Origin: Pedobacter sp.
GTDB taxonomy: Bacteria > Bacteroidota > Bacteroidia > Sphingobacteriales > Sphingobacteriaceae
DNA: 9,199 nt
Reading direction: 5' to 3'
Assembly (NCBI GenBank): GCA_028287885.1
Contig: JAQBOT010000039.1
Location: forward strand, 1 to 9,199
Position numbers and translations under genes: made by a program
Notes under the pieces: model-generated
Told to the model about the DNA's origin: nothing
Seen by the model: the letters and a program-made list of their open reading frames with translations, nothing else
Database searches by the model: none
Shown: in pieces, positions 7,355 through 9,199 of the stretch
Layout of the letters: every line of letters begins with the position of its first letter
Numbering within the stretch: the stretch's first letter is position 1

Positions 7355-7603
7355 ATGACACAAGCAGATATTACTGGAACACTCGGTGTGTCCCTCTTAC
7401 TTCTTGCCTTCTTGTTGCAGATCCTAAAAATAGTAAAAACGGAAAGCGCAGCTTATAGTATTTTAAATATTGCAGGCGCCGGCTTAGCTGGATATTCTTC
7501 CTTCTTGCTGCAGTTTAAACCTTTCATTGTTCTTGAAAGTTTCTGGGCGTTGGTGTCGGTATTTAGCTTGTACAAAAATTTAACAGTAAAATCTTCCACG
7601 TGA
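7355..7603 (+). CDS. Small three-helix membrane protein, CBU_0592-like
   Basis: An 82-aa inner membrane protein with three hydrophobic segments, about 6-26, 33-52 and 56-73. The pattern (GTLGVSLLLLAFLL; SILNIAGAGLAGYSSF; VLESFWALVSVFSLYK) resembles the uncharacterised CBU_0592 family of small membrane proteins; that assignment is from memory of the pattern. No function is known. Its ATG follows the uup stop after one base (TAA-T-ATG), so the two are almost surely co-transcribed and may be translationally coupled. The last codons, Ser-Ser-Thr-stop, lie within a parS site, so the 3' end of this gene is shared with a chromosome-segregation element. Confidence 0.8.
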   Translation: MTQADITGTLGVSLLLLAFLLQILKIVKTESAAYSILNIAGAGLAGYSSFLLQFKPFIVLESFWALVSVFSLYKNLTVKSST

Positions 7604-7607
7604 AACA
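7592..7607. other. parS: parS centromere site 1 (ParB binding site)
   Basis: TCTTCCACGTGAAACA matches the parS consensus TGTTCCACGTGAAACA at 15 of 16 positions; only the second base differs. The first 12 bases are the codons Ser-Ser-Thr-stop of the small membrane protein gene. parS sites load ParB, which spreads along DNA and recruits SMC and ParA for origin segregation. Confidence 0.85.
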
Positions 7608-7636
7608 TTCAATAATTAAGGTGTTATTTACATCTT

Positions 7637-7652
7637 CGTTCCACGTGAAACA
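7637..7652. other. parS: parS centromere site 2 (ParB binding site)
   Basis: CGTTCCACGTGAAACA matches TGTTCCACGTGAAACA at 15 of 16 positions; only the first base differs. It has the same orientation as site 1, offset by 45 bp, and shares the 15-mer TTCCACGTGAAACAT with it. It ends 14 bp before the mnmG ATG, so bound ParB could affect mnmG expression. Confidence 0.88.
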
Positions 7653-7666
7653 TAACCCAAAATATC

Positions 7667-9199
7667 ATGTTTAAAGCGTATGATGTAATCGTTGTAGGGG
7701 CTGGACACGCAGGCTGTGAGGCCGCGGCCGCAGCTGCAAATTTAGGGTCTTCAGTCCTCTTAATTACGATGAATATGGAGACGATTGCTCAAATGAGTTG
7801 CAACCCGGCAATGGGCGGAGTGGCCAAAGGGCAAATAGTAAGAGAGATTGATGCCATGGGCGGATACTCCGGAATCATTGCAGATAAAACCACTTTACAG
7901 TTTCGTATGCTAAACCTTTCCAAAGGTCCGGCAATGTGGAGCCCAAGAGCACAGAACGATCGCAAGCGTTTTGCGGAAGAGTGGCGCGTTGCCTTAGAGC
8001 GCACGCCAAATGTCGACTTTTGGCAAGACATGGTGAGCAGTCTAATAATAAAGGACAATGTAGTGTGTGGTGTAAAAACTTCACTAGGGGTAGAGATTCG
8101 AGCCAAGTCGGTTGTTCTTACAAATGGAACCTTCTTGAACGGCTTGATCCATATTGGAGAAAAAAAATTTGGTGGCGGCCGTACCGCAGAACGTTCTGCC
8201 ACTGGATTGACAGAACAATTGGTTGAACTCGGTTTTGAGGCCGGGAGAATGAAGACTGGTACTCCCCCACGTGTGGATGGCCGATCTCTAAATTATTCCT
8301 TAATGGAGGAACAATGGGGAGATGAAAACCCGGGTCGTTTCTCTTACACCAATGTAGAACGTCCAACAGAACAACGTTGTTGCTGGATTACCTACACGAA
8401 CAGCAATGTTCACGAAACCCTAAAAGAAGGGTTTGAAAAATCGCCAATGTTCACCGGAAGAATCAAAGGCCTCGGTCCGAGGTATTGCCCATCTATCGAA
8501 GACAAGATCAATCGCTTTGCAGAACGCGAACGCCACCAAATCTTTGTTGAACCGGAAGGCTGGAACACCTGCGAGATTTATGTAAATGGATTTTCAACTT
8601 CCCTACCGGAAGATGTACAGTACCGTGCGTTGATCCAAATACCGGGATTTGAAAATGCTAAGATGTTCAGACCTGGATATGCGATCGAGTATGATTTTTT
8701 TCCGCCTACCCAGCTGGGATTAACCCTTGAAACTAAGAAAATAGCAAATCTGTTCTTTGCAGGCCAAATTAATGGAACTACAGGATACGAAGAAGCTGCA
8801 AGTCAAGGATTTATAGCTGGAATAAACGCCCACCAAAAGGTTTATGACAAACATGAGCTTATTATGAAGCGATCTGAGTCTTATATAGGTGTGTTGATCG
8901 ACGATCTTGTAACCAAAGGTACCGAAGAGCCTTATCGGATGTTTACCTCCAGGGCGGAGCATCGCCTACTATTAAGACAAGACAATGCAGATATTAGACT
9001 CTCCCCTATTGGACATGAGCTTGGATTGATCAGTGATGAAAGACTCGCCATCGTAAAAAGGAAAGTAGAAAACTCAGACGCAATTGTTAACTTCACCAAG
9101 AAGCAAGGTATAGACATGAGTCAAGCGAATGACATGCTTGAAGTGTTGGGAACAGCTGCCATCAACCAAAATGTAAAAATATTTAGTTTATTGAGCAGA
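7667..9199 (+). CDS. mnmG: tRNA uridine-5-carboxymethylaminomethyl(34) synthesis enzyme MnmG (GidA), 3'-truncated
   Basis: FAD-dependent tRNA-modifying enzyme which, with the GTPase MnmE, installs the 5-carboxymethylaminomethyl group on wobble U34. The frame runs without stop from ATG 7667 to the last base (511 codons); the family is about 620-630 aa, so roughly 110-120 residues lie outside. Visible features: FAD-binding GAGHAGCE (11-18), SCNPAMGG with Cys45, GGGRTAERSATG (169-180), the GidA signature GPRYCPSIEDKINRF (270-284) with Cys274, and a second signature starting AGQINGTTGYEEAASQG (365-381). The two cysteines correspond to E. coli Cys47 and Cys277, which are important for catalysis. 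EPYRMFTSRAEHRLLLRQDN (421-440) is also well conserved. It follows the small membrane protein gene by 63 bp, a gap containing the parS sites. No Shine-Dalgarno sequence is visible (CCCAAAATATC before ATG). No frameshift is seen. Confidence 0.97.
   Translation, partial: MFKAYDVIVVGAGHAGCEAAAAAANLGSSVLLITMNMETIAQMSCNPAMGGVAKGQIVREIDAMGGYSGIIADKTTLQFRMLNLSKGPAMWSPRAQNDRKRFAEEWRVALERTPNVDFWQDMVSSLIIKDNVVCGVKTSLGVEIRAKSVVLTNGTFLNGLIHIGEKKFGGGRTAERSATGLTEQLVELGFEAGRMKTGTPPRVDGRSLNYSLMEEQWGDENPGRFSYTNVERPTEQRCCWITYTNSNVHETLKEGFEKSPMFTGRIKGLGPRYCPSIEDKINRFAERERHQIFVEPEGWNTCEIYVNGFSTSLPEDVQYRALIQIPGFENAKMFRPGYAIEYDFFPPTQLGLTLETKKIANLFFAGQINGTTGYEEAASQGFIAGINAHQKVYDKHELIMKRSESYIGVLIDDLVTKGTEEPYRMFTSRAEHRLLLRQDNADIRLSPIGHELGLISDERLAIVKRKVENSDAIVNFTKKQGIDMSQANDMLEVLGTAAINQNVKIFSLLSR

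Follow-up and report, generated by a model that had tools for sequence, protein, structure and literature searches.

A parS-like site pair beside mnmG as the probable chromosomal centromere of a Pedobacter genome

Do two 16-mers that resemble parS and lie immediately 5' of mnmG (gidA) in a Pedobacter draft genome form the chromosomal centromere of this bacterium, and how close do they lie to the place where its replication starts? The stretch of DNA analysed, referred to throughout as the window, is 9,199 nucleotides long and corresponds to contig C388 of a draft assembly (G000) that comprises 3.42 Mb in 498 contigs and is 92% complete. Its mnmG product shows up to 92% identity to homologs from Pedobacter, the nearest named relatives (family Sphingobacteriaceae). 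The features that matter for the argument are collected in Table 1; the 82-aa ORF upstream of the sites gave no match in Pfam, and its identity came from NCBIfam. As argued below, it is highly likely that the two sites are the chromosomal centromere (parS), that is, predicted ParB-loading sites that are origin-proximal and adjoin mnmG.

Table 1. Coordinates of the parS-like sites and their neighbouring genes in the window
Feature	Position	Strand	Remarks
CBU_0592-family membrane protein ORF, 82 aa	7355..7603	+	NCBIfam NF047864, 43.8 bits against a cut-off of 25
Distal parS-like 16-mer TCTTCCACGTGAAACA	7592..7607	+	15/16 match; C at position 2; overlaps stop codon of upstream ORF
Proximal parS-like 16-mer CGTTCCACGTGAAACA	7637..7652	+	15/16 match; sole deviation at position 1, which is variable; 14 bp separate its end from the mnmG start codon
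mnmG (gidA)	7667..9199	+	Truncated by contig end; TIGR00136, 725.8 bits against a cut-off of 524.85

The site pair and its place beside mnmG

When the window was rescanned, the coordinates of the pair in the preliminary description proved correct, as did its account of two sites in the same orientation, spaced 45 bp from start to start and sharing a common 15-mer; each 16-mer is one mismatch away from the consensus TGTTCCACGTGAAACA. With up to three mismatches allowed, the consensus scan of the window returned four matches (the two sites, each read on both strands) against 0.08 expected, and none of 200 shuffled windows reached four, in agreement with the earlier statement that the pair is not due to chance. 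A genome-wide parS scan, set beforehand as a check on that description, revealed no scattered copies of equal quality in the draft: the 14-base core occurs in these two places only (3.4 Mb searched), the other 18 parS matches each carry two mismatches, and a reversed control pattern gave 35 matches in total. Both sites thus fall within 61 bp and the draft contains no further exact core, which is the clustering looked for in a chromosomal parS.

Conservation in near relatives was assessed in the best 80 of 590 mnmG stretches, mostly from Pedobacter and Mucilaginibacter, of which 79 hold upstream DNA (L222, with 1 bp upstream, was left out); a site was counted when it had the centre CACGTG and no more than two mismatches. 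In all 79 of these loci parS is present within 400 bp upstream of mnmG, with at least two sites in 77 of them (one site in 2 loci, two in 63, three in 13 and four in 1), and the other 958 kb of fetched DNA yielded five more matches, three just past the 400-bp limit and two elsewhere, the latter with two mismatches each. Around the required centre, the flanks GTT and AA are fixed in all 174 sites, which read GTT[CT] before it and [AG]AA after it; position 15 is C in 173 and position 16 is A in 161, while position 1 is variable (T in 114, C in 31). The parS core is likewise present in 41 of 41 near relatives, the draft counted in.

Against this pattern, the proximal site of the window has C for T at position 1, as do the 31 sites just mentioned, and in the distal site G is replaced by C at position 2, a place taken by G in 174 of 174 relatives' sites and also in 54 of 54 sites in a second tally of relatives' loci. 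Because this C breaks a base that is fixed in relatives, the distal site is probably weaker as a ParB site, or the C may be an assembly error; the proximal site, judged from its bases, would probably be the main, stronger site of ParB nucleation. The term "near-perfect" that had been applied to both sites is therefore borne out as far as 15 of 16 bases are concerned, and is generous for the distal one. Their placement between a membrane protein gene and mnmG likewise stands in part: they do adjoin mnmG, but only part of the distal site is intergenic, since it takes in the TGA stop codon (7601-7603) at the end of the 82-aa ORF and is hence partly coding. A homolog of this ORF was recognized in 45 of the 80 loci, and since parS overlaps its 3' end in all 45, lying wholly inside it in 40, the same stretch doubles as a centromere-like site and as coding sequence.

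The placement beside mnmG, which had been singled out for comparison across Bacteroidota, was found to be phylum-wide in an evenly drawn sample of 118 genomes, 111 of which carry an exact parS core. Distances to mnmG were available for 59 genomes with both coordinates, the other 52 of the 111 parS-bearing genomes not being among them; outside the class, 31 of the 83 parS-bearing genomes were hand-picked so as to be spread over families, several many-site genomes being omitted. With the limits of the mnmG model match, and not the start codon, taken as the boundary of the gene, and with five G064 sites on another contig omitted, the distance between parS and mnmG is no more than 510 bp in 55 of these 59 genomes (at most 500 bp in 54, and 508 bp in G150), and in the other four (G102, G076, G147 and G053) parS and mnmG are on separate contigs. 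Five of the seven core-less genomes (G072, G086, G093, G115 and G120) have a site with one or two mismatches about 70 bp or less from mnmG; no such site was found near mnmG in G129 and G154, the latter also being without an mnmG match above the cut-off. Two-mismatch matches are frequent by chance in some core-less genomes (in G072, 13 against 13 for the control), and the weight of two-mismatch sites comes from their position beside mnmG, not from their number.

Two further observations were made at mnmG loci of the phylum sample. Sites with CATGTG or CACATG as their centre stand beside mnmG at G115:C4:90130-90299, G086:C175:2653-2668 and G120:C16:9005-9020, and could represent a variant parS in some lineages. 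In addition, G056:C1:1086926-1086939 is a parS core located within the mnmG coding region, with three more upstream.

A position so close to a gene start would also suit an operator, at which ParB or another factor bound 5' of the start codon would regulate mnmG, with segregation as a secondary matter. In Sphingobacteriaceae-type loci the centre of the proximal site mostly lies 14-46 bp before the mnmG start codon, and Pseudomonas aeruginosa ParB represses promoters adjoining the intergenic sites parS3 and parS4, according to the available portion of PMC5521831. However, sites flank mnmG in 25 of the 54 linked genomes and are confined to its downstream side in 8 (upstream only in 21), and it is because regulation from the 5' side leaves downstream-only or two-sided placement unexplained that this reading is disfavoured. 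Moreover, the sites follow the parS consensus in their base pattern, and in the aligned relatives' loci the spacer between the sites lacks conservation comparable to that of the sites themselves, on which ground a promoter or operator within the spacer was also rejected. Regulation of mnmG as the main role of the sites is therefore considered unlikely.

Partition proteins and the predicted action of ParB

That parAB is not visible at the locus, as had been remarked at the outset, agrees with the situation in closed genomes. Among the 19 with coordinates for parS, dnaA and parB, none has parB within 50 kb of parS, the nearest lying about 300 kb away and the median distance corresponding to 0.23 of the genome length; by the same 50-kb measure, 5 of the 19 have dnaA near parS. 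Genome lengths were rounded for 14 of them, so that small distances (e.g., 55 kb in G144) may be too large.

In the draft, two ParB domain models detected no ParB, and the search for ParA gave weak ParA-like matches alone, at 25-29% identity. ParB_N is present in 39 of 41 relatives (the draft counted in), being absent from the draft and from G006, a single contig rated 84% complete; among the relatives that are at least 90% complete it is found in 38 of 39, with the draft as the sole exception, and no relative with a match has more than one ParB_N gene. In both relatives that were read (n = 2), parB encodes a ParB with GERRxRA and is preceded by an adjoining gene for a ParA-type ATPase, which among the 25 matches listed falls below every model's curated cut-off. 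The Pedobacter ParB matches structures of Noc, Spo0J and ParB, with Noc at the top by a small margin, and the Noc model gives it 238 bits, under the cut-off of 315.

Since neither parA nor parB was found in the draft, the sites could be seen as relics of an old origin cluster that joined mnmG to parAB, no longer bound by ParB in a genome that may have lost parAB altogether. An ancestral origin cluster of this kind, containing gidA together with parAB, is a published proposal (PMC2099444, in the part of the text available), and the distal site, with its break at a fixed base, would be in keeping with decay. On the other hand, the proximal site is intact save for a variable base, and the nearly complete relatives retain ParB_N almost without exception. 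Besides, the draft is incomplete and fragmented, and because the two genes adjoin in the relatives read, one gap could hide both; the absence of parAB from the draft may reflect a single assembly gap at this operon or, less probably, a true loss, and we infer that the genome does have parAB. The relic reading is accordingly held to be very improbable. As for a chance CACGTG palindrome, the hexamer alone is common, but the excess over expectation in the window and the conservation of both sequence and position in relatives make this explanation practically negligible.

The two sites are thus a real and conserved pair, and very probably work as a centromere of an established type. At such a centromere ParB would load as a CTP-dependent clamp, the clamps would spread onto the flanking DNA, ParA would move the ParB-bound region, and ParB would likely recruit SMC, steps that are reviewed in PMC7333895 as far as its available text goes. 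By analogy with model species, both clamp sliding and SMC loading would be expected here. Separation of the chromosomes would then begin with the origin region, with the parAB operon acting in trans, far from parS.

The replication origin

The suggestion in the preliminary description that the locus lies near the origin is supported by GC skew in closed relatives, which puts the origin nearer to parS than to dnaA. A skew model with two arms was fitted to 20 stretches sampled round the chromosome in each of four closed relatives, and in all four the fit is better with the origin placed at parS than at dnaA, with residuals of 0.0099 versus 0.0283 (G133), 0.0099 versus 0.0448 (G045), 0.0414 versus 0.0699 (G019) and 0.0389 versus 0.0624 (G008). 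The resolution of the skew is low, the share of positions that fit as well as parS being 0.198 in G133, 0.048 in G045, 0.100 in G019 and 0.040 in G008; free fits come to lie near parS in G045 and G008, and are off by 0.16 and 0.27 of the genome in G133 and G019, respectively. At the local scale, G009 has its skew minimum at a distance of 6.5 kb from parS and G019 at 16.7 kb, and G008 has no clear minimum at parS. A large distance between oriC and dnaA is common in Bacteroidetes, as stated in the accessible part of PMC4755523.

As a separate observation, additional matches to the DnaA C-terminal domain occur in G019 (C1:2430686 and 2852858), at a great distance from its dnaA, which stands where the contig begins, and two such matches occur in G006 (C1:2216207 and 2801190); these might be DnaA paralogs.

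A candidate for the origin itself is the gap between nadB and nadA. These two genes, named in L179, were found in 58 of the 80 loci, are divergent, and enclose a gap of 398-622 bp with an AT content of 0.71-0.81, whose distance downstream from the mnmG start is about 5.6-6.7 kb (L176-L253). The 58 gaps contain 16 exact TTATCCACA boxes against 0.35 expected, and 63 boxes within one mismatch against 8.35 expected, while 19 of them are without any such box, exact or one-mismatch. A relaxed box, TGTKRRTAA, was picked once 19 of the gaps had been aligned and inspected, and with this pattern there are 131 boxes against 7.5 expected and at least one in each of the 58 gaps; the 430 bp upstream of mnmG, 33 kb in total, hold 2 boxes. 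Because the pattern had been chosen from that 19-gap alignment, boxes were recounted in the 39 gaps not used for its choice, which contain 89 against 5.5 expected, with 7 in the reversed sequences. A block of the form TAAT(A)AACAATA is also partly conserved in the gaps, and its exact form occurs in 27 of the 58 loci. The gaps of G008, G009 and G019 have 2, 1 and 2 TGTKRRTAA boxes, respectively, and in G009, the only genome where this is so, the skew minimum falls inside the gap.

Other signals were considered and set aside. Boxes seemed to be enriched in the fetched loci at 5.0-6.5 kb past mnmG, but this is partly an artefact, as the plus-strand matches of L179 at +5265 and +5607 lie in nadB coding DNA, and for this reason counting was then limited to the nadB-nadA gap. 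Within the window, DnaA boxes show no excess over chance (two one-mismatch matches versus 2.48 expected), and in the 400 kb round parS in three closed genomes there are at most two boxes per 300-400 bp, which does not amount to a cluster.

The nadB-nadA gap, which is some 6 kb from mnmG in the relatives, is regarded as a candidate oriC only. The contig of the window ends within mnmG, before any such gap; ParB would be expected to bind at the two sites, and replication would begin in the nadB-nadA interval, at a distance of about 6 kb.

Relation to known systems

It is already in print that parS can mark the origin apart from dnaA. In a set of 12 mouse-gut bacteria, Bacteroides caecimuris being one of them, the origin is marked by clusters of parS and is not always at dnaA (PMC10197239, in the text available); the likeness to the present locus resides in this marking of the origin apart from dnaA, and the difference in that the same portion of that text does not mention gidA or mnmG. 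A link between parS and mnmG in Bacteroidota was not found in a search of the open literature at the level of titles and abstract openings, and the 2007 parS survey by Livny and others may contain it.

The interest of the locus lies in the constancy of the mnmG address and the remoteness of parB, which together raise the question of why a segregation site should be kept by a tRNA-modification gene phylum-wide while its own partition genes are remote. A tentative answer, which we put forward as a possibility somewhat more doubtful than not, is that mnmG is the fixed address of the centromere throughout Bacteroidota, and that a parS-mnmG unit (in Sphingobacteriaceae with the nadB/nadA origin about 6 kb off) has been kept while dnaA and parAB sit hundreds of kb away. 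The centromere's own partition genes would then serve it entirely in trans, and mnmG would be retained beside parS by selection on the surrounding ParB-loading zone and not on tRNA modification. For Bacteroidota drafts, in which dnaA can be a misleading guide, this suggests a one-gene rule, namely that the centromere, and probably the region of the origin with it, is to be sought beside mnmG; such a rule would aid the annotation of origins and estimates of replication rate from metagenomes.

Two known systems remain to be compared with the pair. Noc is a relative of ParB, and its structure is the top match of the Pedobacter ParB. The centre of Noc sites, nevertheless, differs from the parS centre CACGTG, and it is the latter that the window carries, which speaks against a Noc-binding site; in addition, relatives with a match have a single ParB_N gene.

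The closest counterpart is the chromosomal ParA-ParB-parS system, represented by Spo0J/Soj of Bacillus subtilis and by those of Caulobacter and Pseudomonas. The present locus is like it in the sequence of the sites, in their clustering and in their proximity to the inferred origin, as well as in the lone ParB_N gene of the relatives and the ParA-type ATPase next door where this was read. In Bacillus subtilis, Caulobacter and Pseudomonas parAB is close to the origin, whereas the sites described here are tied to mnmG and, in the 19 closed genomes, lie 0.3 to 1.3 Mb from parB.
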